Assembly (NCBI RefSeq): GCF_037126465.1
Contig: NC_088201.1
Location: 233,811,406-233,875,405, forward strand
From: Ornithodoros turicata
Lineage: Eukaryota > Arthropoda > Arachnida > Ixodida > Argasidae
DNA length: 64,000 nt
Reading direction: 5' to 3'
Shown here: piece after piece, positions 32,563 through 59,829 of the stretch
How the letters are laid out: each line of letters begins with the position of its first letter
Position numbering within the stretch: the first letter of the stretch is position 1
Notes under the pieces: model-generated
Seen by the model: the letters and a program-made list of their open reading frames with translations, nothing else
The model's database searches: none
What the model was told of the DNA's origin: nothing
Made by a program: the position numbers and the translations under genes

Positions 32563-34161
32563 CTACACTGTGGCATTCCGTACCCTTTTTAGTCCATAGT
32601 CCTGCTCGAAAGGTGATGGACACGTTCCATTGTAATCGTCGAAGTCGATGTGGTACACAAGGACGCATCTTCCTTTTGAAAATTTACGTTTCAGCAAGGT
32701 CAAAGATTCAACGAAAAACATTTCGCCCTGCGTTCCTTTCCCATACCTGTATGCCTCGCAGCCACGAAAGGATGTGAACTCCCACACACCTAGTGTACAA
32801 AACTCGAAGAGCGCAGCTTTGCCGCTTTCATTGGATATTTCGTGTGGCATCCACGGTTTGCCTCCAGGGTACGCTGCTGCTTCAAAGAGCAGGCTGACGC
32901 TGAAGCAAGCCTTCACTGGGGCCAGAGCGCTGATTGCTTTCGAGGCTGCATCGAAATTATACTTTGCCAGCAAACACTGCCGGGCGATATCTTGATTAGT
33001 CGAAAATGTGGAAACCTTCGTGTCGAAAAACAAGGTATCAACCTTATCGGCAAGGAGGGAAATATTGAAATGCTGGTGAGCTATGCTTGCGGTGCCGGGT
33101 AGCATCAGCGTAATATTGAAATGGCGTCCAACTTGGGCATTGAGATGAAACAGTTCTTTCAGTCTGTCCAGAAGGTCTGCCAGCGTCTCTCCGTCGTATG
33201 GAAGTCCGCAGGTGTCCTCAGGATACACCCAATGTATGTTGACGCCATCCAGGTGGAAACGAAGCACGGTGTCCAGGATGTCTACGGCGATCCTTGCCAT
33301 CATTCGCTTGTCCCAACCGAGCCGAGCGAATTGAAAGCTGTCCTCAGGATATCCTCCCACTGAGAGCAAAATCGTGTTCCACTTCCGTCTTAGTGATCCA
33401 AGCTGTCGAAGACCATAGTAGTGATCGAAACTGGGAGCCCTACTGACCAGCTGACCAGCGTCGATGTCCACTGACCAGTAGATCACGCAAGAGCAGAGAT
33501 GCAATGGTACGTGTTTCGGTAGGTAGTCGTATTGTTTCGGTTTTCGGAAACGGCTGTTGTTGTAAATACAGCAGAATACGACGTCCTTACTGGGCTCACT
33601 GATGTTGTTCCGTACGATGTCAGAGTCGGCTACGTCAGTGATGTTGTCGGAGATAGCTGCGCTCTTCAGACATGTAGGTGGGAGTCCCTCCCAGTGCTCC
33701 GGGACCGTGACGTGGTCAAAACTCGACGTCGAAGAATGGCTCGCAGAATCTCCGGTCAACGATGTTACGCTAACAGTTTCGACGTCGCTGGAACCACTTC
33801 GAAGGAAGTTAAGGAAGAGGATTCCAGAGGGTAAAATCATAACGCTACATACGATAGTGCAGAAGGTCCAGACGTAGAAGGTGTTGTCGTGGTCTTCTTC
33901 TGGATATGGTTGGCTTTCTTCGGGTGTCTCTAAGCTCCTCAGCGAATAGAACGGAGGACTTCTGACAGGCGTTGACCCCAGGTGTGCTGCAGGCTCAGAT
34001 GAGCTCCCACTGGGTGCCGAAGAACCAGAAGTGTGCTGGCGGGACTGAGGGCTTCCTGATACATTACCAGAGGCTGTTTCCTTGTTACTCGACGGGTAAA
34101 CTGGGCTAGGTGACGTGCAAGGAGGATCAGGGCTATTGCATGTTTCGTTTGACTGCATCAT
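32563..34161 (-). CDS. membrane-anchored GH18 chitinase-like protein, copy B
   Basis: Intact 532-residue intronless frame starting at the doubled ATG (MMQSNETC, 34161); upstream in-frame codons lack an ATG. Residues 1-92 are Ser/Pro/Thr-rich and probably cytosolic. Residues 95-119 form one transmembrane segment (YVWTFCTIVCSVMILPSGIL), giving a type II protein. Residues 195-530 resemble GH18: VVFCCIYNNSRF (first strand), CSCVIYWSV, ILLSVGGYPEDS (the SxGG motif) and DGVNIHWVYPED at 305-316. The chitinase signature DGxDxDWEYP has lost two Asp and the catalytic Glu (to Asn, His and Val), so hydrolysis is not expected. Vertebrate chi-lectins show a comparable loss (YKL-40 reads DGLDLAWLYP). At least five N-x-S/T sites lie after the membrane segment. 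An AATAAA lies within 10 bp of the stop. Likely a surface glycan-binding or structural protein. Confidence 0.88.
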   Translation of the reverse strand: MMQSNETCNSPDPPCTSPSPVYPSSNKETASGNVSGSPQSRQHTSGSSAPSGSSSEPAAHLGSTPVRSPPFYSLRSLETPEESQPYPEEDHDNTFYVWTFCTIVCSVMILPSGILFLNFLRSGSSDVETVSVTSLTGDSASHSSTSSFDHVTVPEHWEGLPPTCLKSAAISDNITDVADSDIVRNNISEPSKDVVFCCIYNNSRFRKPKQYDYLPKHVPLHLCSCVIYWSVDIDAGQLVSRAPSFDHYYGLRQLGSLRRKWNTILLSVGGYPEDSFQFARLGWDKRMMARIAVDILDTVLRFHLDGVNIHWVYPEDTCGLPYDGETLADLLDRLKELFHLNAQVGRHFNITLMLPGTASIAHQHFNISLLADKVDTLFFDTKVSTFSTNQDIARQCLLAKYNFDAASKAISALAPVKACFSVSLLFEAAAYPGGKPWMPHEISNESGKAALFEFCTLGVWEFTSFRGCEAYRYGKGTQGEMFFVESLTLLKRKFSKGRCVLVYHIDFDDYNGTCPSPFEQDYGLKRVRNATV

Positions 34162-34431
34162 GTTAAGGCCGTCTTTGTGCGAAGACTGGAAAATGGGTTC
34201 ATACGAGACGCTTCGGATGGAACGCTCGTTGCTGTTGTCGTCTTCTTCTTCTTGAGTGTGCACTCTCTTCTTCTACGGCGTAGCGTCGAAGGCACAAAGT
34301 TTGTCGAAACTGCTCATATACAAGCTGCTCGATTCGGCAGTTTTTGTTTTGCGGAACCGTTTCGAAGGAGGATATTTCGAAAGAATTTTCGTGTTGTGAG
34401 GGCGTAGTAGGAACATGAAGAGCGCATCTGT
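34162..34431 (-). other. 5' leader of GH18 copy B
   Basis: Homologous to the leaders of copies C, D and E (39800-40052, 52130-52371, 63015-63257). They share CCTCCTTCGAAACG, a GAAGAAGAAG purine tract and TTTTCCAGTCTTCGCACA. The pyrimidine-rich stretch before TTTTCCAG could be the 3' end of a 5'-UTR intron. Open frames through it are not conserved in phase with the protein. Confidence 0.45.
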
Positions 34432-34467
34432 AAATGTTAATTATGAAACTTCCTAACAGGCTGCAGT

Positions 34468-34549
34468 TTTCCTTGTTGCTCGACGGGTAAACAGGGGTAG
34501 CTGGCGTGCAAGGCGGTTCGGGGCTAATGGGTGTTTCGTTCGACTGCAT
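34468..34549 (-). pseudogene. N-terminal stub of an A-type GH18 gene
   Basis: ATG at 34549 begins MQSNETPISPEPP and runs through VYPSSNKE, matching the first 27 codons of copy A. It then switches to unrelated sequence at CTGCAG. The same truncation point is present at 47703, so the deletion predates the unit duplication. Confidence 0.85.
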
Positions 34550-34551
34550 TA

Positions 34552-34724
34552 CAGTGAACCCTCGTTATTATGACCATGGTCGTCCCCAGAAATTTCGGTC
34601 ATAATGAGGAATTGTCACATTAACGGGGGGGATTTGCAGAGGTTTCACAGGATTGTTCCTCAAGAGTATGGTCGTAAAGCGCGTATGTCAGATTATCGGG
34701 GGTCATATTAACGAGGGTTCACTG
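34552..34724. mobile_element. 173-bp pogo/Tigger-like MITE
   Basis: Termini CAGTGAACCCTCGTTATTA and its inverse, flanked by TA (34550-34551 and 34725-34726). The CAGT(G)AACCCTCGTTA start is typical of pogo-type elements. The paralogous site at 47786 (gcaTTATATCACC) is empty with one TA. It sits directly in front of the stub ATG. Confidence 0.9.
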
Positions 34725-35953
34725 TATATCACCGGCCGTGTTTTTGCGAAAACTGGAAATATAGGGTGTCAGACAAGGCGCGTCAGATGGGGCGTGTTCC
34801 GTTTGCTGTCGTCCTCTTCTTCCTCAGCTGTGTACTTGCTCCTTCCAAGTTATGGCGTGGGGCTACAACATCTTTCGATACCGCTCTTACCGGCTGCCTG
34901 CTTCAGAAATTTTTGTCTTACAGAGACGTTTCGAGGGGGGCTCAAGTGGGTGGGGGGGAGAACGTGCCGGCCCCTTTTCTGAGAGTGCGCGCAAGAGGAA
35001 AGGAACCAGGATACGGTAACGTATCGTAATAATCTGACAGTCGAGAGATACATTCAATGTAGAACTCAAAATGATATTCTTTCGTTATATTCTTCACTAT
35101 TTCGCATTGATCATTTAAGGCATTTCTGCTGAGCTGTCCAGTGCAGGACATTGATGCAGAATAATTTTCGTGCAATGTGCGTGTAATAAAAATAGGAGCA
35201 GTGCATGTGCAGATTTTAATTATTGGAGTCAGTCATTTGCAATCAGTGCAAATACAACATTGTTCTGCCAATTGTTGTACAATCCGTTTTGGAAAAGCGC
35301 TCCCCGAATGTCGAAGGGACGTCGGCGTATCACGCTTTTTTTTTAGGCTCCAGTGGAAGTTAGTCCTGGACAGATCGTCTTCTGATTGTAATAGTTCGTG
35401 GGTCTGCGTCGCGAGACAACAGTGATGATCGATCATGAAGAACGCCACGGTCGTCAGTCTGCTGATTAATTTCGCCCACCTGGGGGGTTTGTTCACGTGA
35501 CCTAAATGACGTGTTCCGACTATTACGCCTTCGTATGACGCCATGCAAGAGAAGCCTTTTCAGATTTTGACATTTATTCAAGAAGTTGCGAAATCACCCA
35601 CGAAGACAGTGGCAAGGAGAGACAAAGACACGAAGAACACATCACAGGCCGACTGCTGACTGACTTATGGAATATTTATTAACGGCACGAAGCATAAATC
35701 AACAAAAGATAAAACCGCCGTAAACAGTTGCATGTTATAGAAAAACACAACATATAAATACGACTATTCACTGTACGCCAACTGAAGGTACTCTGCATCT
35801 AGCACCCCGTACCGCAGATCGCTAGATGTAGAGAAGGTACTGTGCTGGACAAAAGCCTACGGAACATGCTCCGGCGCATTTCTTCCTTAGAGGGACACGC
35901 GCTAGCAGCCAGTGGTATCGTACGGACTTACAAACAGGTGACTGGGTTACTTA

Positions 35954-36893
35954 GGGTGGGTTCACACGAGGGACGCATCCCCAGGATAAGTCCGCGGATG
36001 GTGTAAACGTCACAGCCTACGTCATCAAAATGTGCGTCCTCTCCGGTCCGCGGAGGACCGGAATCCCACCGCGGACCATTCGTCTCCGACCCACAAACGG
36101 TCCCCGTGTTGGCGGGGGACTTGAGGATGGAGCAGCGTCTTTTGACTTTTTTTTCTTTTTTCGACTGGCTGTTTTACAGCTCTGACCGCTGAAGCAGAGG
36201 GTATTCGAGGAACAGCGTAATAAAAGAGAGGAATCGTGTACGGGTCTTCACGAAGCAAGAAAAAATGGGGAAAACGAGGGTTTTGCTACGAGCAAGCGGA
36301 TCGCCAAATACGATACCCACTATAGCACGGCGTGGAAATGTGACCTTACTGCACGATAGAACAGTGACAGATAAGTTATGATTATGATAGGTTTTACATA
36401 TGCATTTGTCGCTTTGTACTGTAAATAGCTTTTACTACGTGTCCAGACTCGAGAACTCACAGTTGTCTGTTTCCTTCGCTGAAAACTCAGTGCAGTTTGA
36501 GTTATTCCTTTTCAACGAAGTGGACATTTTATGATTCCGTGGCACGGCAACACTGCTCGTACGCAAAGGCGGCGACCGCGAAATGTGTGTTGTCATCGAC
36601 GTAGCAGTTTCTTTTTTATTTCGCTAGTGCAGTGGTTCCCTCCATTGTGGGATGCTAGAGGTGCAATAATGTACCGCAACGTATAAAATGTCATTTTTTC
36701 TGTTCAACCACAGTGCAGAAAAGTGAGAAAACTGGTTCACGCAGCCTGATAAGTGTTGTTGGAGACGGATTTATCCGCTCCCATCCCTCGTCCCGTGTGA
36801 ATGCTCAGCGGGGACGGGGACTTCTCCGTCCACGTGACGTCACCGCCCGCCGCGGACTTATCCCGGGGATGCGTCCCTCGTGTGAACCCACCC
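35954..36893. mobile_element. 940-bp Harbinger-type TIR element
   Basis: Ends GGGTGGGTTCACACGAGGG with about 45-bp inverted repeats reaching TAAGTCCGCGG. TTA duplicates flank it (35951-35953, 36894-36896), matching the TWA target of PIF/Harbinger. The site in unit 2 (TTACTTAGTCACAT near 49205-49217) is empty. Short frames inside are not recognisable as transposase. Confidence 0.88.
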
Positions 36894-37169
36894 TTACTCA
36901 CATATTTGTAACTCCGTACGGTACCAATCGCTGTTAGCGTGTCACTCTGAGGAAAGAATGCGCCAGAGCCTGTTCCGTAAACTTCTGTCCAACACAGTAC
37001 CTTCAGTACAGGGGAATTTTTCGAGAACTGTTCACATTATTTTATTACAGTTTGTATTTCAGCTTTCACGTCATTAATCAATCTTACAGTCGAGACTCAG
37101 CAATTGCCCTGCGGGCTATTCTTTATCCCCTGCGTGGTGCTTTTATACCAACACGGTCGGTTTTTCTAT

Positions 37170-37713
37170 GGGTGCGTTTTTTATTTTACCCGGGTAACTC
37201 GGGGGTAACCCTTACTGGGCGAAAAATCGAGGGTGACGGAAGTGACGTCATAACTAACCGGCGAAAAAATTCAACTCTCGTCGCTCGAGGGTTACTCTGG
37301 GTACCTACTCTCACTGACCCAGCTCTGCTGGTGGGTAGCAGAGGGTTATGACGTCACACGACGTCAAGTGAGAGTCCCGCGTCTTTTAACTTTCGGATTC
37401 CGATGATATATTGCGGTGGCTTTAGCACGACTGTTGTTTCGTTGGATGCATGCCTTTTTCTTCCTTCGTCATCATCTTCCCCTTCGTCAAATGCGTCAAG
37501 CAGCGCAAGTGCCGCAACTTCTACAATCATGACCTCGTCGAAAACGTCGTCTGCCTCTGCCGCCATGTTCGCTGAGACGGGCGGGCGTAACTCGTAATGG
37601 GCGAAAATTTCTAAACTGGGGTACCTACCCACAGGTCACGTGACATCTCACTCGAGTCACGTGGTGCGTAACCCGGGGGGTTACCCTGGTGGAATAAAAA
37701 AAAAAACGCACCC
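37170..37713. mobile_element. 544-bp Harbinger-like element, unit 1
   Basis: Ends GGGTGCGTTTTTTATT and its inverse with about 35-bp imperfect TIRs, flanked by TAT (37167-37169, 37714-37716). Copies lie at 49486-50024 and, truncated, at 61064-61316. The copy A flank has the empty site. Carries one ATG-start frame on the minus strand. Confidence 0.85.
37354..37566 (-). CDS. short acidic ORF inside the Harbinger-like element
   Basis: ATG at 37566 in strong context (aacATGGCGG) opens MAAEADDVFDE and continues with VAALALLDAFDEGEDDDEGR and KRHASNETT, 70 codons in all. The layout (short hydrophobic helix, acidic run, basic run) resembles the start of Harbinger transposases. The rest is missing, so it is probably exon 1 of the parent transposase kept in a non-autonomous copy. 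The unit 2 copy keeps an almost identical frame. Confidence 0.4.
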   Translation of the reverse strand: MAAEADDVFDEVMIVEVAALALLDAFDEGEDDDEGRKRHASNETTVVLKPPQYIIGIRKLKDAGLSLDVV

Positions 37714-38039
37714 TATGATAAGTGATATGAAAAGTTCCACGACTCTTCCAAATCCATGAAACACGAGTTGGTGTTGTTGCCATAGAACGTATGGCCCTAA
37801 GCACTCCTGAGCGTGGCACTGAGGAGTTCTAAACACGACATGTTGGTTTGTGGTTCTCCTCATTCTGCCTTCCACTGATGACGTGTCCTGTATGGGGTAC
37901 GAAACGTCTGTTTTTCCTGTTATGTCAGTTCCGAGTTATTCTTTCGGAGTATTTTTGATAAACACGACATGTGTCTTATTTTTTAAAATAAAAATCAACC
38001 GCCACTCGAAAAATCGGTACGCAAAATAGAGGGTTTTTA

Positions 38040-39070
38040 GCGTTTACATAATATTTATTTAAAAAAAAAAAAAAAAAACTACGAGAGCAGCTTAGACGTC
38101 GTTTGTCCAGTTGAGTTCTACGGCCAGGCGGACGCCCTCTCGAGGAACGTGTGCAACTACGAGGTGATTAATGAGCTAAAATTGATTAATTAACTTTTTT
38201 AGTTAGGGGATTTCGATCGAAAGTGAGATGGCAGATTGAGAGATTATCCTCGTTGCAAGCCCTTCCACGTTTAACAAATGCTGAAAAAACGCATGTGCGT
38301 TTAAATATCCATCCTCAAATATTTATATGCAAATGAGCCGGAACCGAAACCGCGACGACCGGGAGCCCGGGGAGTACAGCGCTCATTTCACGTTAGATGG
38401 TCACGTGCTTTGGAGCGATGAGAATGATTGGAGTAGGTGCCGCTCAGCTGGCCACGTAAACCGCTTTCTGACCCGGATGAGCCTTCGTCGGAGAGGGTGA
38501 TCCGCTCCCCAGGCGCGCTTTTTCGGTTTCGGCTCATTTGCGTATCGCACATTCGGAGATGGACATTTTAACGCGCGTGCGTGTTTCAGGATTTTTTAAA
38601 CGTGGAATGGCGTTCAACGAAGATAGTCAATCAATCTGCTACCTCTCTTTTGCCCGAAATTCTCAAATTAAAAAGTTAATTTTTGAATTTCAGGTAATTA
38701 GTCATCTGGTAGTTACGTACTCTCTTCAAGATGTTGTCGGCCTGGTCGTAGAACTCAAATACAAAAAAAAAACATCTATGCTGCTGCCATAGTTCTTTTT
38801 ATAGAAATGCTTTAAAGTATCAAAATAAACACCTGGTATAAAAGCCACCAGAGAGCCTTCCAGGAATTTTCGAAATAAATCGCAAAACATCACAGGGCTC
38901 TTGAAGGTGAGGTACCGTCATCCTGACGACTTTCCTAGCGACAGCACGTCCTGCGATTCGCGCTCTTCTTCACGTTGGATGCCTACTAGCAGTTACGCCG
39001 ATCAGATAGAAATTGCTCCTTGAGACACAATGTTGCCAGTCGAAAAACAGATTGTGGGCCTTATCACGTT
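38040..39070. other. upstream region of GH18 copy C
   Basis: Repeated at 50370-51388 and 61660-62676, with conserved ATGCAAATGAGCC and GGTTTCGGCTCATTTGCGTA (inverted relation) and TTAATTAACT words. No gene seen; it may hold promoter elements of the C-type copies. Confidence 0.4.
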
Positions 39071-39073
39071 GTA

Positions 39074-39471
39074 CAGGGTGTATGCTATAAAAGGTCAGTG
39101 ACATTTTCGCGCGTGACACTGTATCTATTTGAGAGACGGACTTGTGCTGCCATACAGTGAATCACTTATGCCAGAGAAACCTACGAAAAAATTGTGGTTA
39201 CCATTCACTGCGTAATAAAGTAAACACGGCCACGGAAACTTTCGTCTTCATGTGTTTCCTATGCGCAATACCGATGGATGGAGGTGAAAGTTTGCATGGT
39301 CATATTTATTTTATTACACAATGCTAGGTAACCACAATCGTTTCGTAGGTTCCTCTAGCATAAATGATTCACTTTGAGGCAGAGAAAGTCTTTTCGTGAT
39401 AGAGGTGTAGCATCAAGGAGGTATCACTTTTTGCACGAAAATGTGACTCACCTTTTATAGCATACACCCTG
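39074..39471. mobile_element. 398-bp TA-target MITE, unit 1
   Basis: Ends CAGGGTGTATGCTATAAAAG and inverse, flanked by TA. An identical insertion lies at 51393-51790. Unit 3 has the empty site (gcgttgTAtttctc at 62671-62684). A 61-codon frame inside is conserved only because the copies are near identical. Confidence 0.92.
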
Positions 39472-40052
39472 TATTTCTCAAGAGTAGAAATTCAGTTTAG
39501 GACACCTTCGTGTCAGCCACAGGAGCAATACCGTAGGAAGGTACAGTCTCAAACACGTGGGATGTAGTGACGTCAATTCGAGAGGATTCTGATGACGCGA
39601 GATTAATACCGACATCACACGTACGGACAGTTTTCAATGTTAATTGGAACCAATGGTCAATGACATGCGCGTACTATCACCTTTGAAGCGGTAAATGTGA
39701 ACCAGTGCAAAAGCAATACAAAAATGTCATTCTAAATTATACACTATATGTTCCTCTCAACTCGCATTTTATTATACAATGTTATCATGTTACCTGTCGC
39801 TCGGCACCCCTTCTAATAAATGCGACCGATGCGGTCGCCCCCTCGGTCCTCCTTCGAAACGTATCCGTAAGACAAAAAGTGCCGAATCAAGCAGCTTGTA
39901 TGAGCAGCTTCAACAAACTTTGTGCGTACGACGCTACCACGTAGAAGAAGAGCGTGCACAGTTGAAGAAGAAGAAGACACAGCAACGAACGTTCCATCTG
40001 AAGCGTTTTGTCTCACACCTTTTTCCAGTGTCCGCACAGAGACGGCCCTGAC

Positions 40053-41636
40053 ATGATGCAGTCGAACGAAAGATGCATTAGCCCTGATCCTCAAGGCACG
40101 TCACCTAGTCCTGTTCACCCGTCGAGCAACAAGGAAACAACGTCTGGTGAAGTTTCAGGAAGTCCCCAGTCCCGCCAGGACACTGCCCCTTCTTCTGCGC
40201 ACAGCGGAAGATCCTCTGAGCCTGCATCACACTTCGGGTCAATGCCTGTCAGAAGTCCTCCCTTCTACTCGCTGAGGAGTTTGGAGACGCGCGAAGAAAG
40301 CGAACCATACCCAGAAAGAGAAAACTACAACTTATTATATGTGTGGGTATTTTGCACCATAATATGTAGCCTTATGGTTCTACCCACCGGAATCATCTTC
40401 CTTCAGTTCCTCCGCAACGTCGAAACTGCGAGCGTGACACCTTTGACCAAAGCTCCCACGAACCATCCTTCGACGTCCAGATTTGACCACGTCACGGTTC
40501 CGGAGCATTGGGACGGACTGCCAGCAACGTGTTTGAAGAGCGCCGCAATCTCCGACAATATCGCCGACGTAGCCGACTACGACATCGTAAGGGACAACGT
40601 CAGCGAGCCCAGTAAGGACGTCGTATTTTGCTGTGTTTACAACAACAGCCGTTTCCGAAAACCGAAACAATACGACTACCTCCCGAAGCACGTACCATTC
40701 CATCTCTGCTCTTGCTTGATCTACTGGTCAGTGGGCATCGACGCTGGTCAGCTGGTCAGTAGGGTTCCCAGTTTCGATCACTATTACGGTCTTCGACAGC
40801 TTGGATCACTCAGACGGAAGTGGAACAGGATCCTGCTCTCAGTGGGAGGATATCCCGAGGACAGCTTTCAGTTCGCGCGGCTCGGTTGGGACAAGGGAAT
40901 GATGGCAAGGATCGCCGTAGACATCCTGGACACCGTCCTTCGTTTTCACCTGGATGGCGTCAACATACATTGGGTGTATCCTGAGGACGATTGCGGACTA
41001 CCATCCGATGGAGAGACGCTGGCTGACCTCCTAGACAGACTGAAAGAACTGTTTCACCTCAATGCCCAAGTGGGACGTCATTTCAATATTACAGTGATGC
41101 TACCAGGAACCGCAAGTGAAGCTCGACAACATTTCAATATATCTCTCCTTCGTGGTAAGGTTGATACCCTGTTCTTCGACACGAAGATTTCGACGTTTCC
41201 CCCCGGTAAATATTTCGCTCAGCGGTGTTTGCAGGCCAGGAAGAGTTTCGATGCAGTCTGGAAGGCAATCAGCGCTCTGGCACCGGGGAATGCTTGCTTC
41301 AGCGTCAGCCTGCTCTTTGAAGCCGCTTACACGGGAAACGTACCGGGTGTACCGGACGAAATATCCAATCAAAGAGGCAAGGCTGCGCTGTTTGAGTTTT
41401 GTACACTCGTTTTGTCTAGATACACGGCCTTCACTGACTGCGAGGCGTACTGGCATCTGGGAGGACCACAGAGCAGGGTCTTCTTCGTTGAGTCCCTGGC
41501 GTCCCTGAAACATAAATTTTCGAAAGCAAGATGCGTCCTGGTGTACGACATCGACTTCGACGATTTGAACGGAACGTGTCCGTCACCGTTTCGGCAAGAC
41601 TACGGACTACACCGGATCTGGAAAGCGACGATTTAG
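40053..41636 (+). CDS. membrane-anchored GH18 chitinase-like protein, copy C
   Basis: Intact 527-residue frame from the doubled ATG at 40053 (MMQSNERC) to TAG 41634-41636, with AATAAA at 41640-41645. Same layout as copy B: Ser/Pro-rich tail, transmembrane segment LLYVWVFCTIICSLMVLPTG, stalk (VPEHWDGLPATCLK), then VVFCCVYNNSRF, CSCLIYWSVGID, ILLSVGGYPEDS and DGVNIHWVYPEDDCG. The dead active site is identical to that of copy B although the stalk is five residues shorter (LRNVET instead of the longer LRSGSSDVET). Copy C lies 5.9 kb from copy B, start to start, and is transcribed away from it. Promoters for both may lie in the shared interval. The gene is intronless in its coding part. Confidence 0.88.
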   Translation: MMQSNERCISPDPQGTSPSPVHPSSNKETTSGEVSGSPQSRQDTAPSSAHSGRSSEPASHFGSMPVRSPPFYSLRSLETREESEPYPERENYNLLYVWVFCTIICSLMVLPTGIIFLQFLRNVETASVTPLTKAPTNHPSTSRFDHVTVPEHWDGLPATCLKSAAISDNIADVADYDIVRDNVSEPSKDVVFCCVYNNSRFRKPKQYDYLPKHVPFHLCSCLIYWSVGIDAGQLVSRVPSFDHYYGLRQLGSLRRKWNRILLSVGGYPEDSFQFARLGWDKGMMARIAVDILDTVLRFHLDGVNIHWVYPEDDCGLPSDGETLADLLDRLKELFHLNAQVGRHFNITVMLPGTASEARQHFNISLLRGKVDTLFFDTKISTFPPGKYFAQRCLQARKSFDAVWKAISALAPGNACFSVSLLFEAAYTGNVPGVPDEISNQRGKAALFEFCTLVLSRYTAFTDCEAYWHLGGPQSRVFFVESLASLKHKFSKARCVLVYDIDFDDLNGTCPSPFRQDYGLHRIWKATI

Positions 41637-41830
41637 TCAAATAAACCGATAGGATAGAAGGAGCCACGTTAATCAATACCGTACCGTACTGTTCACGGGC
41701 ATCTACGTTATCTCCGATAAGCTACGGTGGTTTCAGGTTCAAAACTTGCACTCGTACAAGTAAACAAATAAATTAGATAAAATCACCTGCCTGTCTGTAG
41801 TTCTAGTTACGTATGCAGATGTCATGAGCA

Positions 41831-42200
41831 CCCAAGCAGCACAATGTACTGAAAGTCGAGTGCAATAGGGGTGGACGGTATGTGTCTCATCGATGTTCTT
41901 TAATGTCAGGAGTCTGTTCAAGGCCTTCCATCTACCCGTCAACCCCTATTGCACTTGTTTTTCAGTACGTAACATGAAAAACGGTTAGGAGCAACTAATA
42001 TTTATTCGAACAAGAACTTTCGTGCAAGAGACTGCACTTCTTCAGGTTGCACTTCTTCAGGTTCTTGCACGAAAGTTCTTGTTCGAATAAATATTAGTTG
42101 CTCCTAACCGTTTTTCATGTTACGTGTGTGATTTGCTCTTCGCGGGCTCCTTGACAGTGTTTTATTTTGTTTTGTTTTTCAGTACATTGTGCTGCTTGGG
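41831..42200. mobile_element. 370-bp foldback element, unit 1
   Basis: Ends CCCAAGCAGCACAATGTACT and the inverse. Inside, a nearly perfect palindrome (41967-42124) has arms of about 75 bp, with a smaller inverted pair around AGTGCAATAGGGGT and ACCCCTATTGCACT. The diverged copy in unit 2 is 54152-54521. The end CCAAGCAGCAC also appears at 9112, 56467 and 56706. Confidence 0.75.
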
Positions 42201-42756
42201 CAATACACACTTGGTTTATGATTGAACAGGCGCACGATAGGACGAGGGGACAGCGGCTTCGCGGGGTGATAAGTCGAGCTAATCTAATCAAGTAATCAGG
42301 TAAACGTTGTTCTCCAGATCAATGTATCTTGCTCGCGCGTGCTGCTTCCTCTGTCTTGCATACGGCTTACCAGGAGCCACTTGAGTAAGCTTATTTAGTG
42401 ACTCAAGTCTTACCAATTGACTTGGTGGGGAAAGGACGTATTACCTTACATCATTCTGGTAGTCAATGTGTTTGGACAACGGTTTCTACCTCTTGAATCA
42501 GGGTTTGTTTCGCGTGTTGATAAAGGAGTGTAGAGGAATGTACGTCAGACGGCGTTCGTAGGAAATATCGAACGCCTCCGTGGAAAGTGCGAAGTGGCCC
42601 CAGGTAGCACAAAAGTTTGCAGCAACGTTGTCTAACTGTCATCTCGTAACATTGCTCAGATGTTGCTGTGCGTTTCAGAGCTGGCTGCGCACCGAGAGCA
42701 GCGCTACCCTTTCTCGTAACGTGCGGTAAATACCCCTAATTCGTGGCGTGAATGCT

Positions 42757-42876
42757 TTACGAACCAACGCTGATGTCCAATAATTCGAAGTCAACAGCGT
42801 CACACTCAAGCGAAGCAGCGGACAGCGGGTTCTTATGTGGCGCGGCCCAAATGTCAATGCCGTCTGCTGTCGCCAT
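42757..42876 (-). CDS. 39-codon ORF in a possible TIR element
   Basis: ATG at 42876 (caacATGGCGAC) opens MATADGIDIWAAPHKN and ends LLDISVGS with TAA at 42757. The flanks contain CACGTGGT, GTCACGTGACC and GGGTTACC words like those in the Harbinger-like element at 37170, so it may be another carried first exon. Function unknown. Confidence 0.3.
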   Translation of the reverse strand: MATADGIDIWAAPHKNPLSAASLECDAVDFELLDISVGS

Positions 42877-43229
42877 GTTGAGAATCGTACTCGCGCCCGT
42901 ACCACAACCTACCCGAGGGTTACCTTACTCCCGTGGTCACGTGGTACAACTCTGTCACGTGACCGACTCCTACTCGACGGTTAGTTGTGGACCGTACCCT
43001 TTGTAGCAGACGAACAATGTTGGGTGACGTCACAGTAACTTCCTCGGCGCGAACCGCTGTGCGCTTTGGATGTTGGTTTCGGTTTCGCGTTGTCATCATT
43101 TACGAATTAATTAATCGCACGAAACGAATGCGAATCTTTATGCGAATGTTGTATTCGGTATCAAGGGAGCGATCTGTGTTTGGCATAATGTTCACCCCTT
43201 TTTTTTATTCTTGCGAAGTCTCCCTTTAA

Positions 43230-44057
43230 AGGGACCATGAAATGATTTTCGAGAAATCTGAGTACTCTGCAGGAAACCGTTCACATGATCCATCACTATC
43301 GTACACACATCGACTATTGGCCGTATTCAGTACAACGGAGGCGCAGTTATCAGACAAAAATAGCAGGGCGTGACCGCTGGATATATGCCTTCGAAGTGGG
43401 CTTACGTCATCGCCATCCAATCCTTTCAACCAACTGTGAACGACGAGGAGGACACACCCCGCCGGACCACGTGGGTGCATGGTTTCGGTTTGGACAACAC
43501 CGACGTTGTATATCTCCCTTCGAAATCACTTGAAATATGGCGAAAGGCAAATTATCAGCAATGGAGGAAGAGGTTATGCGACGCACACAGCGTCTATGGA
43601 TCGTTTGGTACGCAGCAGCTCAAAAAATGACACCGACGAAGGTTTGTTCTGACGAAGATGAAGTTAAAAGGGGAAAACGTGCTCCGGTAACCATGCTGAC
43701 AGTCAACGGCTATATTACATTTCTCGTAGGGTTCTGTCTAAACGGTTAGTTACAATCTTGTCTCCAAGTCAAATTAAAATATATTTCATGACGAAGTACA
43801 CAAGCTTGTTTGAAAATTTCGCACTTTGCTCACAAAAGCCCGTCCGCGAATCGGCAACATGTTCTGTGTATGATGTCACGGCCAGTTCGCCTCGGAGGCG
43901 GGCCGTAGCAGCTGCTGTTCATGCCTGTGGTAAATATCGAATATTTTCTATATTTGTACGATTTTCAACTTAATATTTCACAGCTAGTGAATGCTTTAGT
44001 ACAGGGGAAGTAATTAAAAATGATCGTGAGCTTGTCAAATATCGTTTCATGGTCCCT
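43230..44057. mobile_element. 828-bp element with TTAA target site
   Basis: Ends AGGGACCATGAAA and its inverse, flanked by TTAA (43226-43229 and 44058-44061), the piggyBac-type target. Contains one ATG-start frame (43537). Non-autonomous. Confidence 0.7.
43537..43749 (+). CDS. short ORF inside the TTAA element
   Basis: ATG at 43537 (tgaaATGGCGAA) opens MAKGKLSAMEEEVMRRTQR and continues to a stop at 43749. A possible donor (AAG followed by GTTTGT) lies at about 43640. Basic and acidic residues at the start suggest a nuclear protein, but no family is recognised. Confidence 0.35.
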   Translation: MAKGKLSAMEEEVMRRTQRLWIVWYAAAQKMTPTKVCSDEDEVKRGKRAPVTMLTVNGYITFLVGFCLNG

Positions 44058-44169
44058 TTAAGGTCAGCGCCTCTGTTTCTTTTCCCGTGTGAGGGCTTTC
44101 TTCTTTCGAAGTCGGTAAGCCTGGCTCCCTCGGGGGATAGGGGGAATTAGGAATTGAAAGGGTAACCGT

Positions 44170-44500
44170 AGAGGATTTCGATGCTGGGCGGGCGTTTCCA
44201 TGTGGGCAATCCGTCTTGAGACCCCTGAACAGATGTCTTCCGGACGATACTCAGAACCAATCAGCGACCCTGGACCCTCTAGCGTCAGGGCCAGGTACTT
44301 CTCTCCACCGTCGTTGCGCACGGTCGCTTATTTGTGCCGTACGTTTAACCCAATTTCTGCGATCATCGCTCCTTTTACTGGACAGCTTACCGTTTTGTAT
44401 AGAACAAAGACAGGGTGCTAAAAATGACTTCAGGGCTACCGTAAATTATTTGGGTTCAGTGTGAAACGATACTGGTAATCAATATGCTTTATTTTGTATT
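44170..44500. repeat. block duplicated at 58250-58500
   Basis: Downstream of the GMC exon; shares GACGATACT, ACCAATCA and GTGAAACGAT(A)CTGG-type blocks with 58290-58490 at about 75% by eye. Two minus-strand frames share PGSLIGS(E/Q)YR, which looks coincidental to the repeat. Confidence 0.5.
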
Positions 44501-44569
44501 TTTACTGTATGGTTTTCTTTGCCCTCTCAAACTTCGTGTCAGGTGACTGCCTTGTTGGGATACATCGCG

Positions 44570-44723
44570 CTAAGGTGCTATTTGACCTAGATTGTGCTCT
44601 TCGATGATCATGTCGGACGCCTTGGCTGCGATGGCATACACCGTTGCCATGATATTCCCCGACACGACGCTTGGCATAATGGAAGCATCCACAACTCGAA
44701 GGTTCTGCAGGCCACCTCGAACT
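44570..44723 (-). CDS. last exon of a GMC oxidoreductase
   Basis: After an acceptor (tttcag, ending 44724) the frame reads VRG, then [33 protein letters not shown] and [10 protein letters not shown], with TAG at 44570-44572. The [11 protein letters not shown]...SGN......IAEKASDMI block is the C-terminal signature of FAD-dependent glucose-methanol-choline oxidoreductases such as glucose dehydrogenase. The block carries the FAD/substrate-proximal segment. SGN is kept, but the usual N-x-x-T after it is changed to IMATV. No other exon of the gene is seen in the window; the rest must lie at higher coordinates behind a long intron, or the copy is a fragment. Confidence 0.75.
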
Positions 44724-44929
44724 CTGAAACAGTATTATTAAGTGCACGTTACTTATATGAACACGTTATAATAATAATTATTTATTTATTTGGTCACAAA
44801 ATTTACCGAAGACAGCGACAAAAAGTCACACCGTGACTTGAAGAGGTCACTGTTCTCGTAGAGCATCATCACATATTATTTTATTTACGAAAGGAGTGCG
44901 AGAAGGTGTAATGCGTGTTGCTTGGGACA

Positions 44930-45021
44930 GAACATGATTAAGAGCGCGGAGGGACAGGGACAAACAACTGAACTCCCCCCTGTGTGTCTGTCCCTGTCCC
45001 TCCGTGTTCTTAATCATGTTC
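44930..45021. repeat. short foldback (about 30-bp arms)
   Basis: Inverted arms (GAACATGATTAAGAGCGCGG, then AGGGACAGGGAC, and complement) around a spacer with CCCCCCTGTGTGTCTGTCCC. Third member of the small foldback type. Confidence 0.75.
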
Positions 45022-45448
45022 TTTTTTTTCTTACAGAAAATTGAGGTATTACGACGCTGCACCCTACAAAAAAAAGGAAAAACAGAAACAAAAGGATACA
45101 CTTAATCAACGCACTTCTTAACTTGTAAAATATTTCCCTAACAGATTTCCTTGTGTGGCTCCTAGTAAGTTAATGGAAATGTTATTTAACAATGTAGGCA
45201 CAGCATGTTGTATCTGTTGTTCACCATATGATGATCTACATTTTAGAATGTTCCATTCATGCTGATGACGATCAAAGTATGCATATATAGCAGGTGAGAG
45301 GGTGGCGATATTAAGCAGAACAGGGTCCGCTTCCGTCGTGGCTATAGAATATGGTTACAGCCTTAGCGAAGTCACTAGGGTATTCTGCGCGGTTATGCCA
45401 ATGCGGAAATTACTTCCGAAGTCTGTTAAACGATTTCTATATACACGG

Positions 45449-46341
45449 TGTTTTTTCTAAATACAGATTTCTCATAAAAAAAACTATAAGAGCTATAGAT
45501 ATCTGTATTCACTTCTATTATGGCCGGCGGACGTTCTTGGCCATCTGTTGCTCAACCGTTGAATGAATACTAACCTAAAAATCGTTAATTAACCTTTTTT
45601 TCTTTGTTATAAGAGCTACAGGGTCGTGAAAACTTCAGGTCCCTTCGGTCACCTGATATCTTTACCGTTTTCAGAACAAAAGTCCGTTCGATAGATCGCC
45701 CACGAAAAAATCGTAAAATAACACATTTTTTTTTCTTTATTTTGCTCATTGCGCATCTTCGGAGACGCGTCTTTCCTTCACCCCTATTGTGAGAGGGTGA
45801 AAGAGCGCAGTTCCGCCCCATGCGTGGAAGATGAGCTCAACTTGCGGAAACGAAACTAAAACGCAAGCATCGGGTGACGCTATCCAAACTGCCCTTATCT
45901 TGGGTTGCATTTTCTGTTTTCGTTTCACCTTCTTCCAGGTCGCTAGAGGGGATAGTGTGCTCTTTCACCCTCTCACATTACGGGTGAATGAAAGACACGT
46001 CTCAGAAAATGCGCAATGAACAAAATAAGGAAAAAATCGTGTTCACTCACGAATTTTTTGCCAGCGATCTAATGAACGGATTTCTGTTTGATTTCAGGTG
46101 AACCAGAGGACCAGATATTCTCATTGGGACGACCTTGTAGCTTTTTTAATGAAAAACTTAATTAACAATTTTTACGTAATTAGCCATTCGACGGTTGAGC
46201 AACAGATGGCTCAGTACGTCCGCCGGCCCAGAGAGGCGGCGGAATATGGGCGGATATTAAGAAAGGCGGCAATAGAAGTGAAAACAAGATGTTTATAGCC
46301 CTAATAGTTTTTGTTATGAAAAAATCTGTATAGAAAAAGGC
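45449..46341. mobile_element. 893-bp foldback element with long arms
   Basis: Left arm (45449-45790) and right arm (about 45960-46341) are imperfect inverted copies. They share TTTTTCTA.ACAGATTT ends, ACTATAAGAGCTATAG, GGCCGGCGGACGTTC, CATCTGTTGCTCAACCGT and TTAATTAAC. The loop is about 170 bp. Part of the same element lies at 60340-61063. Confidence 0.8.
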
Positions 46342-46344
46342 GCC

Positions 46345-47529
46345 CTCTATAACTCCATCGTAGCATCACATATAGTGTATTGTTATCTAGTCTCGGGGTA
46401 AACACCGCATAACAATTTATACATCTTTATACATCGCATACATTCATTATTTATATTGCAAAACATGTATCTTCCTACCATTGTTAATCTGCATTACGAC
46501 CATCAAACTGGTTCGCTTTTTTGAGATGATTAACATAAGATACATCAACTTTATTCATTCAGGCTCTACAATACACTGACGGGGCTTACCGACTACTTCC
46601 CAAGTGTGAACGTTCCTTAGTAAAACATGGACTACACCCACTCTGCTTATATTTTACTGCTTTTCTGCTATATATTTCTTACATTTATCTCTGTCGCCTT
46701 CTCTACACATCACAACACGACGCAAAACGACGCAACGGCATCTGGCGGATGTAAAGGAAAGTTACTGCTCTGAGGCCGGAAGACGCAAAGGAATGAACAC
46801 AATACAAGCGGCAAGGTGCCGCAGAAGGTGAGAATTCGAAATATTGAAATGTCGCAGTCCTCGATATCACGATACGAGTACAGCAATGTCAATATTTCAG
46901 TATTTAATTACTTTCCAACACACGTCTTCTGTTCTGTGTTGTTCATCAGTCCCAATCGTTTGTTGGACTTGATCCTGGCAATTTATAACATAATTACGTA
47001 TCCATAATTGATACAGTACGCCCTATTATTCTGATCGTCAACGTCAACGATATGCCCCATTCTTTCGATGCTGATCTGAATCATTGTTTAAGCAGGACGC
47101 GTTCCCTAGGATGATGTCCTTTATGGCGTCCCTTTATTTGAATACATCTGTCTACAGGCGTAATCTGTGCCTAATCACTTGGTGCAGAAACATCGTGCGT
47201 GAACGAAAAGAAAACAGCAAGACGCGGATATGGGAGCGGAACACTAAACATCAAAACAGTATGGAGTGCACCTCGAACAAGAGCATGCGCAGCGGCGCCT
47301 GCTTCTCCCAGCCTCATCTATCATGTTGTGACGTCAAATCATCCGAACATTTTTATTGGCTCTCGACAACCGTGTTCTACGGCGCGCTAGGAAGGCGACC
47401 GTTTATTTCCTCTCCCTTACATGCAGCTAGGGTGTACAACAGCAAACAGAGAGACGATTGCACGCCCGGCATTATTGGCCCGGTGATGTGACGTCGCAGG
47501 CTGGCAGCCGAGGGAAATCGGAAGGGAAC
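46345..47529. other. no gene seen
   Basis: AT-rich without recognised repeats or domains. A 135-codon plus-strand frame at 47084-47491 shows no domain or conserved copy. Confidence 0.35.
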
Positions 47530-47667
47530 AAATGACGTCATAGTGTTCGCCAGCGCCATCAATTTTGATAGAGTTGAACTGCGCTCGAAGCTAGGGGGCG
47601 AACAAGGTCGCGTCCGAAAGCCACGGTCTTGCGAGGATTACGATGGTCCCTGATAGCGACGCGACCT
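47530..47667. repeat. dispersed repeat (copy of 11040-11180)
   Basis: Second copy of the 11040 repeat; it ends exactly where duplicated unit 2 begins (GACGCGACCT then AAATGTTAATTATG). Confidence 0.55.
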
Positions 47668-47702
47668 AAATGTTAATTATGAAACATCCTAACAGGCTGC
47701 AG

Positions 47703-47785
47703 TTTTCCTTGTTGCTCGACGGGTAAACAGGGGTAGCTGACGTGCAAGGCGGTTCAGGGCTAATGGGTGTTTCGTTTGACTGCAT
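47703..47785 (-). pseudogene. N-terminal stub of a GH18 gene, unit 2
   Basis: ATG at 47785 and 27 codons matching the start of copy A, with the same break as in unit 1. Confidence 0.85.
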
Positions 47786-48924
47786 TATATCACCGGCCGT
47801 GTTTTTGCGAAAACTGGAAATATAGGGTGTCAGACAAGGCGTGTCAGATGGGGCGTGTTCAGTTTGCTGTCGTCCTCTTCTTTCTCAGCTCTGTCCGTTC
47901 TCCTTCCACGTTATGGCGTGGGGTTACAACATTTTTCGATACAACTCTTACCAGCTGCCTGCTTCAGAATTTTTTGTCTTACAGAGACGTTTCGAGGGGG
48001 ACTCAAGGGAGGGGGAACGAGCCGTCCCCTTTTCTTAGAGTGGGCGCAAGAGGACGGAAACCAGGATACGGTAACGTATCGTAATAATATGACAGTCGAG
48101 AGATGCATTCAATATAGAACTCAAAATGATATTCTTCACTATTTCGCATTGATCATTTAGGGCATTTCTGCTGAGCTGTCCAGCGCAGGACATTGATGCA
48201 GAATAATTTTCGTGCAATGTGCGTGTAATAAAAATAGGAGCAGTGCATGTGCAAATTTTAATTTTTGGAGTCAGTCATTTGCAATCAGTGCAAATACAGC
48301 ATTGTTCTGCCAATTGTTGTACAATCCGTTTTGGAAAAGCGCTCCTCGAATGTCGAAGGGACGGCGGCGTATCACGCTTTTTTTTTTTGGTTCCAGTGGA
48401 AGTTAGTCCTGGATAGATCGTCTTCTGATTTTAATAGTTCGTGGCTCTACGTCGCGAGACAACTGTGATGATTGATCATGAAGGACGCCACGGTCGTCAG
48501 TCTGCTGATTAATTTCGCCCACCTGGGGGGTTTGTTCACGTGACCTAAATGACGTGTTCCGACTATTACGCCTTCGCATGACGCCATGCAAGATAACCCT
48601 TTTCAGATCTTGACATTTATTCAAGATGTTGCGAAATCACCCACGAAGTCAGTGGCAAGGAGAGACGAAGACAGGCAGAACACATCACAGGCCAACTGCT
48701 GACTGACTTATGGAATATTTATTAACGGCACGAAGCATCAATCAACAAAAGATAAAAGCGCCGTAAACAGTTGCATGTTATAGAAAAACCCAACATATAA
48801 ATACGACTATTCACTGTACGCCAACTGAAGGTACTCTGCATCTAGCACCCCGTACCGCAGATCGCTAGATGTAGAGAAGGTACTGTGCTGGACAAAAGCC
48901 TACGGAACATGCTTCGGCGCATTT

Positions 48925-49133
48925 GGCGGTGGTGATGATGATAGGGCTTGCCGTTGTCGGCCTCCCGTAAGTGGGCAACGTCACGACTGACGCCCTGGGG
49001 AAATGTGCGTCCTTGGCCGACTTCTAGGGGAACTGTGCCGACATATGTCTGAAAGCGTCTGAGGAAAACCCAGGAAAAACCCCAGACAGCACAGCCGGCA
49101 CCGGGATTCGAACCCGGGTACCTCCCAGTCTCT
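48925..49133 (-). mobile_element. 5'-truncated SINE, unit 2
   Basis: Minus strand: begins inside the tRNA part (GACTGGGAGGTACCCGGG, B box GGTTCGAATCC) and continues through the body to the TATCATCATCACCACC tail. GCGCATTT flanks both sides. Same target as 22135-22255 but longer; unit 1 is empty here. Confidence 0.85.
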
Positions 49134-49485
49134 GCGCATTTCTTCCTCCATGTGGCACGCTAGCAGCCAATGGTATCGTACGGACTTACAAACAGGTGAC
49201 TGGGTTACTTAGTCACATATTTGTAACTCGCCGTAGGGTACCATTCGCTGCTAGCGTTTCATTCTGACGAAGGAATGCGCTAGAGCCTGTTCCGTAAACT
49301 TCTGTCCAGCACAGTACCTTCAGTACAGGGAATTCTTCGACAACTGTTCACATTATTTTATTACAGTTTGTGTTTCAGCTTTCATGTCATTAATAAATCT
49401 TACAGTCGAGACTCAGCAATTGCCCTGCGTGCTATTCTTTATCCCCTGCGTGGTGCTTTTATACCAACACGGTCGGTTTTTCTAT

Positions 49486-50024
49486 GGGTGCGTTTTTTAT
49501 TCTACCCGGGTAACTCGGGGGGTAACCCTTACTGGGCGAAAAAGAGAGGGTGACGGAAGTGACGTCATAACCTAGCGGCGAAAATTCAACTCTCGTCGCT
49601 CGAGGGTTACTCTGGGTACGTACACTCACTGACCCAGCTCAGCAGGTGAGTAGCAGAGGGTTATGACGTCACACGACGTCAAGTGAAATTCCGCGTCTTT
49701 TAACTTTCGGATTCCGAGCATATTTCGGTGGCTTCAGCACGACTGTTGTTTCGTTGGATGCATGCCTTTTTCTTCCTTCATCATCATCATCTTCCCCTTC
49801 GTCAAATGCGTCAAGCAGCGCAAGTGCCGCAACTTCTACAATCATGTCCTCGTCAAAAACGTCGTCTGCCTCTGCCGCCATGTTCGCTGAGACGGGCGGG
49901 CGTAACTCGTAATGGGCGAAAATTTCTAAACGGGGGTACCCACCCACAGGTCACGTGACATCTCACTCGAGTGACGTGGTGCGTAACCTCGGGATTACCC
50001 GGGTGGAATAAAAAAAACGCACCC
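49486..50024. mobile_element. Harbinger-like element, unit 2
   Basis: 539-bp copy of 37170-37713 with the same ends and TAT flanks. Confidence 0.85.
49669..49881 (-). CDS. short acidic ORF, unit 2 copy
   Basis: ATG at 49881; reads MAAEADDVFDEDMIVEVAAL and DAFDEGEDDDDEGRKRH, with one extra Asp codon. A compensating upstream/downstream indel pair keeps the frame to the same final residues (SLDVV). Two in-frame changes between copies suggest little or no recent frame loss. Confidence 0.4.
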   Translation of the reverse strand: MAAEADDVFDEDMIVEVAALALLDAFDEGEDDDDEGRKRHASNETTVVLKPPKYARNPKVKRRGISLDVV

Positions 50025-51392
50025 TATTATAAGTGATATGAAAAGTTCCACGACTCTTCCAAATCCACGAAACACGAGTTGGTGTTGTTGCCATAGAACG
50101 TATGGCCCTAAGCACTCCTGAGTGTGGCACTGAGGAGTACTAAACACGACATGTTGGTTTGTGGTCCTCCTCATTCTGCCTTCCACTGATGACGTGGCCT
50201 GTATGGGGTACGAAACGTCTGTTTTTCCTGTTATGTCAGTTCCGAGTTATTCTTTCGGAGTATTTTTGATAAACACGACACGTATCTTATTTTTTTTTTA
50301 AATAAAAATCAACCGCCACTCGAAAACTCGGTACGCAAAATAGAGGGTGTTTATTTTTAGCGTTTACATAATATTTATTTTTAAAAAAACTATGACACCA
50401 GCTTAGACGTCGTTTGTCCAGTTGAGTTCTACGGCCGGGCGGACACCCTCTCGAAGATCGTGTGCAACTACGAAATGATTAATGAGCCAAAATTGATTAA
50501 TTAATTTTTTTAGTTAGGGGATTTCGATCGAAAGCGAGATGGCAGATTGACAGATTATCCTCGTTGCAAGCCCTTCCACGTTTAATAAATGCTGAAAAAA
50601 CGCATGTGCGTTTAAATATCCATCCTCAAATTTTTATATGCAAATGAGCCGGAACCGAAACCGCGACGACCGGGAGCGCGGGGAGTACAGCGCTCATTTC
50701 ACGTTAGATGGTCACGTGCTTTGGAGCGATGAAGATGATTGGAGTACGTGCCGCTCAGCTGTCCAGACAAACCGCTTTGCGACCCGGATGAGCCTTCGTC
50801 GGAGAGGGTGATCCGCTCCCCAGGCGCAATTTTTCGGTTTCGGCTCATTTGCGTATCGCACATTCGTAGATTGATATTTTAACGCGCCTGCGTGTTTCAG
50901 GATTTTTTAAACGTGGAATGGCGTTCAACGACGATAGTCAATCAATCTGCTATCTCTCTTTTGCACGAAATTCTCAATTAAAAGTTAATTTTTGAATTTC
51001 AGGTAATTAGTCATCTGGTAGTGACGTACTCTCTTCAAGAGATGTTGTCGGCCTGGTCGAAGAACTCAAATACAAGACAACATCTATGCTGCTGCCATAG
51101 TTCTTTTTATAGCAATGCTTTAAAGTATCAAAATAAACACCTGGTATAAAAGCCACCAGAGAGCCTTCCAGGAATTTTCCAAATAACGCTCAGAACATCA
51201 CAGGGTTCTTGAAGGTGAGGTACCGTCATCGTGACGTCATCGTGACGACTTTCCTAGCGACAGCACGTCCTGCGATTCGCGCTCTTCCTCACGTTGGATG
51301 CCTACTAGCAGTTACGCCGATCAGATAGAAATTGCTTCTTGAGACACAATGTTGCCAGTCGAAAAACAGATTGTGGGCCTTATCCCGTTGTA

Positions 51393-51790
51393 CAGGGTGT
51401 ATGCTATAAAAGGTCAGTGACATTTTCGCGCGTGACACTGTATCCATTTGAGAGACGGACTTGTGCTGCCATACAGTGAATCACTTATGCCAGAGAAACC
51501 TACGAAAAAATTGTGGTTACCATTCACTGCGTAATAAAGTAAACACGGCCACGGAAACTTTCGTCTTCATGTGTTTCCTATGCGCAATACCGATGGATGG
51601 AGGTGAAAGTTTGCATGGTCATATTTATTTTATTACACAATGCTAGGTAACCACAATCGTTTCGTAGGTTCCTCTAGCATAAATGATTCACTTTGAGGCA
51701 GAGAAAGTCTTTTCGTGATAGAGGTATAGCATCAAGGAGGTATCACTTTTTGCACGAAAATGTGACTCACCTTTTATAGCATACACCCTG
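51393..51790. mobile_element. TA-target MITE, unit 2
   Basis: Copy of 39074-39471 at the orthologous position with TA on both sides; the insertion predates the duplication of units 1 and 2. Confidence 0.92.
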
Positions 51791-52371
51791 TATTTCTCAA
51801 GAGTAGAAATTCAGTTTAGGACACCGCTGTGTCAGCCACAGGAGCAATATCGTAGGAAGGTACAGTCTCAAACACGTGGGATGCAACGACGTCAATTTGA
51901 GAGGATTCTGATGACGCGAGATTAATACCGATATCACACGTACGGACAGTTTTCAATGTTAATTGGAACCAATGGTCAATAACATGCGCGTACTCTCACT
52001 TTCGAAGCGGTAAATGCGAACAAGTGCAAAAGCAATACAAAAATGTCATTCTAAATTATACACTATATGTTCCTCTCAACTCGCATTTAATTATACAATG
52101 TTATCATGTTACCTGTCGTTCGGCACCCCTTCTAATAAATGCGACCGATGCGGTCGCCCCCTCGGTCCTCCTTAGAAACGTATTCGTAAGACAAAAAGTG
52201 CCGAATCAAGCAGCTTGTATCAGCAGCTTCAACAAACTTTGTGCGTACGACGCTACGACGTAGAAGAAGAGCGTGCACAGCTCAAGACGAAGAAGACACA
52301 GCAACGAGCGTTCCATCTGAAGCGTTTTGTCTCACACCCTTTTCCAGTCTTCGCACAGAGACGGCCCTGAC

Positions 52372-53950: not shown

Positions 53951-54151
53951 TCGAATAAACCGATAGGATAGAAGGAGCCACGTCAATCAATACTACTACC
54001 GTACCGTTTCACGGGCATTCTACGTTATCTCCAATAAGCCATGGTGGGTTTTAAGTTCAGAACTTGCACTCGTACAAGTAAACAAATAAATTAGATAAAA
54101 ATCCTCTGCCTGTCCTGTAGTTCTAGTTTACGTATGCGGATGTAATGAGCA

Positions 54152-54521
54152 CCCTAGCAGCACAATGTACGCAAAGTCGAGTGCAATAGGGGTGGACGGT
54201 ATGTGTCTCATCAATGTTTCTTTAATGTCAGGAGTCTGTTTCAAGGCCTTCCATTCTACCCGTCCACCCCCATTGCACTTTTTTTTCAGTACGTAACATA
54301 AAAACGGTTAGGAGCAACTAATATTTATTCGAACAAGAACTTTCGTGCAAGAGACTGCACTTCTCAGGTTGCACTTCTTCAGGTTCTTGCACGAAAGTTC
54401 TTGTCGAATAAATATTAGTTGCTCCTAACCGTTTTTCATGTTACGTGTGTGATTCCCTCTTCGCGGGCTCCTTGACAGTGTTTTATTTTGTTTTGTTTTT
54501 CAGTACATTGTGCTGCTTGGG
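54152..54521. mobile_element. foldback element, unit 2
   Basis: Copy of 41831-42200; the inner palindrome is disturbed by single-base losses (for example TTGTCGAATAA near 54402). Confidence 0.75.
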
Positions 54522-55884: not shown

Positions 55885-55886
55885 TA

Positions 55887-56460: not shown

Positions 56461-56462
56461 GA

Positions 56463-59553: not shown

Positions 59554-59628
59554 TTCTTTATGGTGGCTTTCTTTATTCTCTCAAATTTCTTGTCAGGTGA
59601 CTGCCTTGTTCGGACACATCACGCTAAC

Positions 59629-59778: not shown

Positions 59779-59829
59779 CTGAAACAGTATGAATAAGTGC
59801 ACGTTACTCATATGAACAGTTTAAAGCAT

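Follow-up and report, generated by a model that had tools for sequence, protein, structure and literature searches.

The question that this locus raises is what a chitinase-like protein may do once its catalytic residues are gone. The window, i.e., the whole stretch analysed, covers 64,000 nucleotides of the soft tick Ornithodoros turicata (C1:233811406-233875405; contig C1 has 235,596,939 bases) and contains two intact genes, copies B and C, for GH18-like proteins with an N-terminal membrane segment. These proteins are conserved and catalytically inactive. With a modest degree of preference, we read them as type II membrane pseudoenzymes that bind a protein or glycoprotein partner without catalysis and are encoded in an array amplified for dosage.

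Two intact genes for inactive, anchored GH18-like proteins

The main features are as follows (positions are those of the window):

32563..34161, minus strand: copy B, an intact single-exon gene for an N-terminally anchored GH18-like protein, array subtype B (open reading frame, ORF, of 532 residues; Pfam PF00704, E = 2.5e-11; predicted fold)
33811..33867, minus strand: membrane segment of B, residues 99-117 (hydropathy peak 2.15)
33220..33249, minus strand: inactive motif DGVNIHWVYP of B (motif scan)
40053..41636, plus strand: copy C, an intact single-exon gene, array subtype C (ORF of 527 residues; Pfam E = 4.1e-10)
40347..40403, plus strand: membrane segment of C, residues 99-117 (hydropathy peak 2.43)
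40953..40982, plus strand: inactive motif DGVNIHWVYP of C (motif scan)

The two genes are arranged head to head, and neither ORF (532 and 527 codons) contains an internal stop; they are full-length and intronless, as the original prediction held. Each protein has one Pfam Glyco_hydro_18 stretch, scoring 44.3 bits in B and 40.3 bits in C against a curated cut-off of 29.6, and fold prediction, which had been proposed as a check, gave a chitinase-like barrel; by score and predicted structure, both proteins are therefore members of GH18. Residues 1-98 contain 45% (B) and 40% (C) Ser, Thr and Pro, and one hydrophobic segment per protein, at residues 99-117, was found by hydropathy, in agreement with the proposed layout of a Ser/Pro-rich tail, a single membrane segment and a GH18-like ectodomain. 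No hydrophobic window of at least 1.6 was found upstream of residue 99 in either protein, by hydropathy only and with no signal-peptide predictor, and the suggestion that this anchor is unlike the secreted chi-lectins and IDGFs stands.

As judged from sequence, the topology of B and C is probably type II: the Ser/Pro-rich tail would lie in the cytosol, followed by the membrane segment, a stalk and the GH18 barrel, which would face the outside of the cell or the secretory lumen. A resident of the Golgi or endoplasmic reticulum, e.g., a chaperone or the partner of a modifying enzyme, would have the same orientation without reaching the cell surface. Type II topology is usual among Golgi glycosylation proteins, and the lack of an earlier hydrophobic window agrees with such a location; however, for a Golgi enzyme ~98 residues would be a long cytosolic tail, and we regard this alternative as unlikely.

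The GH18 signature DxxDxDxE has four acidic residues. Only the first of them, an Asp, is retained in DGVNIHWVYP; both later Asp and the catalytic Glu have been lost. The earlier statement that all three acidic residues are lacking is thus right about these three losses, but it overlooked the fourth, retained residue. The motif occurs at four sites in the window, 19680 (minus), 33220 (minus), 40953 (plus) and 53269 (plus), as had been noted for copies A to D; however, D is not an independent copy (see below). Its sameness among such close neighbours is weak evidence that the dead site is under selection, and this part of the original argument is carried instead by codon models and a tick-wide comparison.

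Purifying selection and a tick-wide clade

The ratio of nonsynonymous to synonymous substitution rates (dN/dS, omega) between the ectodomains of B and C is 0.27 (bootstrap 0.19-0.38; 333 codons). Codon models fitted to 12 intact array copies, with kappa fixed at 1 and without gene conversion, gave omega of 0.266 for the whole protein, 0.346 for the tail, 0.341 for the membrane and stalk part and 0.220 for the ectodomain, where the log likelihood was -2994.03, compared to -3072.81 when omega was set to 1. Neither ectodomain estimate is near 1, the value that would have spoken against the original prediction; purifying selection has kept the array proteins. Since the ectodomain omega is low, diversification of the array in an arms race is unsupported.

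A protein search with the whole of B returned two tick proteins, and alignment A1 as the query returned two tick proteins and a priapulid protein; these few matches probably reflect the filling of the 7987 scored candidates by shared low-complexity words. The ectodomain of an Ixodes hexagonus protein, used as the query, returned 15 rows, the query among them; those with a named species belong to Ixodes, Dermacentor, Rhipicephalus and Hyalomma. We aligned these 15 rows with B, C and the O. turicata protein P0001, which is encoded by another locus on the same contig (L028; 1148.8 bits); the models behind rows P0006-P0008, P0013 and P0015 are truncated or aberrant. The position of the catalytic Glu is occupied by Val in 7 rows, Arg in 6, Lys in 3, Thr in 1 and Ala in 1, with neither Glu nor Asp in any of the 18, and the complete signature of an active GH18 chitinase is thus absent from all of them. 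The Gly and Trp of the motif are invariant (18/18), the third acidic site is His in 14 rows and Asp in 4, and the first Asp is retained in 11 of 18. From C164 on, each of ten cysteines is present in at least 14 rows, and C198 and C223 are found in all 18 and correspond in the alignment to the first Cys pair of an insect chitinase. In 17 of the 18 rows, a hydrophobic segment lies N-terminal to the ectodomain.

The same alignment bears on the idea of an altered catalytic activity that would use other residues, e.g., the conserved D274, H310 and W311. These are indeed frequent (W311 in 18/18 rows, D274 in 17/18, H310 in 14/18), but an acidic residue at the catalytic position is lacking throughout, and H310 is replaced by Asp in four rows; such an activity appears highly improbable. 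The barrel of B and C would be unable to hydrolyse chitin by the GH18 mechanism.

In an unrooted tree of 44 rows (without P0007, P0008 and P0015), a split with support of 100/100 separates 25 rows from 19. The 25-row side contains 13 O. turicata rows, four of them from the array and nine others, together with 12 rows that are of hard ticks where the species is given; the 19-row side consists of the single active insect chitinase and another 18 O. turicata rows. The catalytic Glu is also missing from the nine non-array O. turicata members. The array copies thus belong to a tick-wide clade of anchored pseudo-GH18 proteins.

We also searched the genome (1.07 Gb, 379 contigs) for GH18, with 126 matches. 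The sample outside the array comprised 68 loci, 8 from the search and 60 selected manually among the matches for having an open frame or spanning the motif. By the best motif per locus, Glu is kept in 14, missing in 46, and 8 have no clear motif; it should be noted that these are counts of motif loci, not genes, and that assembly duplicates may be among them (L085 and L006 are a single place, and the motif of L038 is repeated by L050 on another contig). A hydrophobic segment was found in 22 of 29 ORFs in the subset of loci read for ORFs. Names such as "endochitinase-like" mislead if the majority of GH18 loci in ticks are inactive and many of their products anchored; in that case, a group of possibly accessible membrane proteins also comes into view. 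As a separate observation, L038 lies on a chromosome-size contig (C9) and L050, with the same motif stretch, on a small one (C120); the pair is possibly an unplaced haplotype copy.

The tandem array and an assembly overlap

Array copies were taken from the matches on C1 between 233.73 and 234.06 Mb, plus B and C. The array spans ~330 kb, a duplicated stretch of 26 kb counted in, and contains at least 12 intact full-length copies (L009, L010, B, C, L012, L013, L014, L016, L017, L018, L019 and L021), three of B-type and nine of C-type, which differ pairwise by at least 28 substitutions. The members that are not intact or complete are A, L015 (interrupted by a gap of 100 N), L020 (the match starts at base 540 of the coding sequence), D and E (L011). 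Those within the window, and the stretch that explains two of them, are the following:

18726..20639, minus strand: copy A, a pseudogene with two in-frame stops, frame-breaking indels and a 291-base insertion relative to C
52372..53990, plus strand: copy D, read as an unmerged assembly duplicate of the intact L012 at C1:233890275 (0 mismatches, 7 gaps over 1582 columns)
63258..64000, plus strand: copy E, which runs off the window, read as an unmerged duplicate of the intact L013 at C1:233901156 (0 mismatches, 2 gaps over 1582 columns, with the window end joined to L022)
41584..64000, plus strand: the window part of a 26,396-base stretch that is repeated to the right of a 100-N gap, C1:233879385-233879484 (alignment)

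The 26,396 bases to the left of this gap align with 26,399 bases to its right with 34 mismatches and 147 gap events, and the one-base indels of D cluster from ~53140 onward, in the coding sequence and beyond. The simplest reading is that the repeat is an unpolished contig end that was left unmerged, and the frameshifts of D and E are most likely sequence or assembly errors. On this reading, D and E count neither as additional copies nor as decayed genes; their status as true pseudogenes was rejected, given their near-identity to L012 and L013 across the gap. The array is an example of an assembly overlap liable to be misread as gene decay, and gene models within 41584-64000 of the window would appear frameshifted as a result of the false duplication.

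Smaller features of the array genes in the window are:

41640..41645, plus strand: AATAAA near the stop of C, starting 6 bases downstream of the first stop-codon base
34460..34552, minus strand: fragment similar to the first 31 codons of the gene
47696..47788, minus strand: fragment similar to the first 31 codons of the gene

The offset of AATAAA is identical in all 12 intact array copies, and inspection of 260 bases upstream of each gave no TATA-type box. The two 31-codon pieces were considered as an alternative first exon and were left as fragments.

These fragments, the stops and insertion of copy A, and the absence of array proteins from the protein database matches could point to a recent amplification of non-functional copies. 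However, there are 12 intact copies, omega is 0.27 between the B and C ectodomains and 0.22 by maximum likelihood, and the frameshifts of D and E are most likely errors of assembly; this explanation is hardly credible. Under the reading of B and C as binding proteins amplified for dosage, the array would mainly raise the amount of one strongly constrained protein; it would not serve to diversify recognition.

Some further observations are given for completeness. The three anchored copies of a second tandem set on C3 (12.25-12.28 Mb; L030, L031 and L032) have DGVNIHWVFP; ectodomain dN/dS, tested in two pairs, was 0.45-0.46, i.e., constraint is weaker than in the main array. In the window, none of four further ORFs has a Pfam match above the cut-off, and tRNA-Thr (GGT) was called at 4187-4259 and 24606-24678, within 221-base repeats that are 96% alike and in opposite orientation; these may be tRNA-derived short interspersed elements.

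The chitin groove and comparison with known systems

An aromatic groove, with Trp at the beta1, GGW and beta8 sites, is a defining feature of chi-lectins. We mapped these sites from the insect chitinase OfChtI, by sequence alignment alone. The beta1 site is Ser in all 18 rows; the GGW site is Tyr in 14, His in 3 and Phe in 1; the beta8 site is Tyr in 9, Val in 4, Thr in 1 and Arg in 1, with three gaps. Thus, Trp is absent from 18, 18 and 15 aligned rows, respectively. At the MxYD pair, where 16 rows are aligned, one row still has the Tyr and none has the Asp. In addition, N201 (17/18) and S203 (18/18) form an N-x-S sequon at the beta1 mouth. The loss of the groove residues and the presence of the sequon argue against ordinary chitin binding, and chitin seems a less likely ligand than the original prediction held, although its proposal of a non-hydrolytic role is consistent with the lost Glu and with purifying selection. 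Its observations were confirmed, and its interpretation was partly supported.

A membrane-bound chi-lectin, whose inactive barrel would bind chitin or chito-oligomers and, e.g., tether cells to the peritrophic matrix or cuticle, is the alternative that this evidence addresses. Foldseek ranks two chi-lectins, SPG-40 and SPS-40, highest for the B model, and at the GGW site an aromatic residue or His persists. Against this, YKL-40 retains its groove Trp residues, whereas here the beta1 site is invariably Ser, the GGW site is never Trp, the beta8 site varies and the MxYD pair is all but lost; we consider a chitin-binding protein of this kind doubtful. As a class, chi-lectin was rejected for B and C because neither secretion nor the groove Trp residues were found.

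Since the barrel is catalytically dead and its groove Trp residues are lost, binding of a protein or glycoprotein partner is the most likely function, and the remodelled barrel mouth may serve a surface adhesion, receptor or scaffold protein. We infer this binding role, along with topology, surface location and dosage. A more specific version is offered tentatively: because the beta1 groove Trp is now the Ser of an N-x-S sequon (17/18), a glycan of the tick itself may occupy the mouth of the barrel, in which case a GH18 barrel would have been turned into a surface binder with a closed-off sugar groove. The soft tick would then have expanded this binder into a 330-kb array to raise its dosage; among the GH18 loci sampled in this genome, those lacking Glu exceed those that keep it by ~3:1.

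Several results weigh against a binding protein at the cell surface kept by selection. Some pairs have omega above 0.5 in the membrane and stalk part (L009-L010 reaches 1.83, on 7 changes), and constraint may thus be weaker in some of the protein. In the nine C-type copies, the 450 bases upstream are no more conserved than four-fold sites (0.090 vs. 0.056), and thus no regulatory or promoter constraint is shown. The array proteins, though intact, are not among the matches of the B or A1 queries, where O. turicata is represented only by P0001. The charge around the segment does not favour a tail-inside orientation in B, C, P0001, P0012, P0013, P0014, P0015 and P0017. Expression, localisation and binding are all putative.

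Among known systems, chi-lectins (CHI3L1/YKL-40, SPG-40, Ym1) share with B and C an inactive site in a GH18 barrel and a high structural match; however, chi-lectins are secreted, whereas B and C have an N-terminal anchor, no signal peptide as judged by hydropathy, and no Trp at the three groove sites. IDGFs, which have an extra loop and growth-factor activity, differ likewise in secretion by signal peptide, by the same hydropathy measure. Insect group III chitinases (Cht7) have an N-terminal membrane anchor and two GH18 domains and are active; B and C resemble them in family, anchor and structural match but have one GH18 domain and are inactive.

Published accounts, represented here by excerpts, describe related proteins. 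The chil genes of Caenorhabditis elegans are, like the array, a chitinase-like multigene family; they are induced in defence and proposed to change the cuticle, and this nematode parallel is one of description only (PMC7809619). In ticks, a chitinase-like lectin is described in hemocytes (PMC10808623), and JAT95172.1 of Amblyomma aureolatum, from salivary extracellular vesicles, is a putative "catalytically inactive chitinase-like lectin" (PMC12031118), which is likened to B and C by annotation and not by sequence. No title or abstract opening was found that describes an N-terminally anchored tick family, with supplements and most subscription journals outside the scope. Inactive tick GH18 proteins are already in print, a membrane-anchored one included. 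Tick GH18 proteins have been studied as chitinases and vaccine antigens, and 32 GH18 transcripts are reported from the midgut of O. erraticus (PMC6822432). One protein of this soft tick, OeCHI, is found there as transcript and protein and is treated as a chitinase and vaccine antigen; its active site, FDGIALGWCKP, lacks Glu, and the same 11 residues are carried by the O. turicata locus L072 (C8:38379200-38379600). OeCHI resembles B and C as a single-span membrane GH18 protein without the catalytic Glu, but it differs from them in having a signal peptide, a C-terminal anchor and this motif in place of DGVNIHWVYP (PMC6822432).
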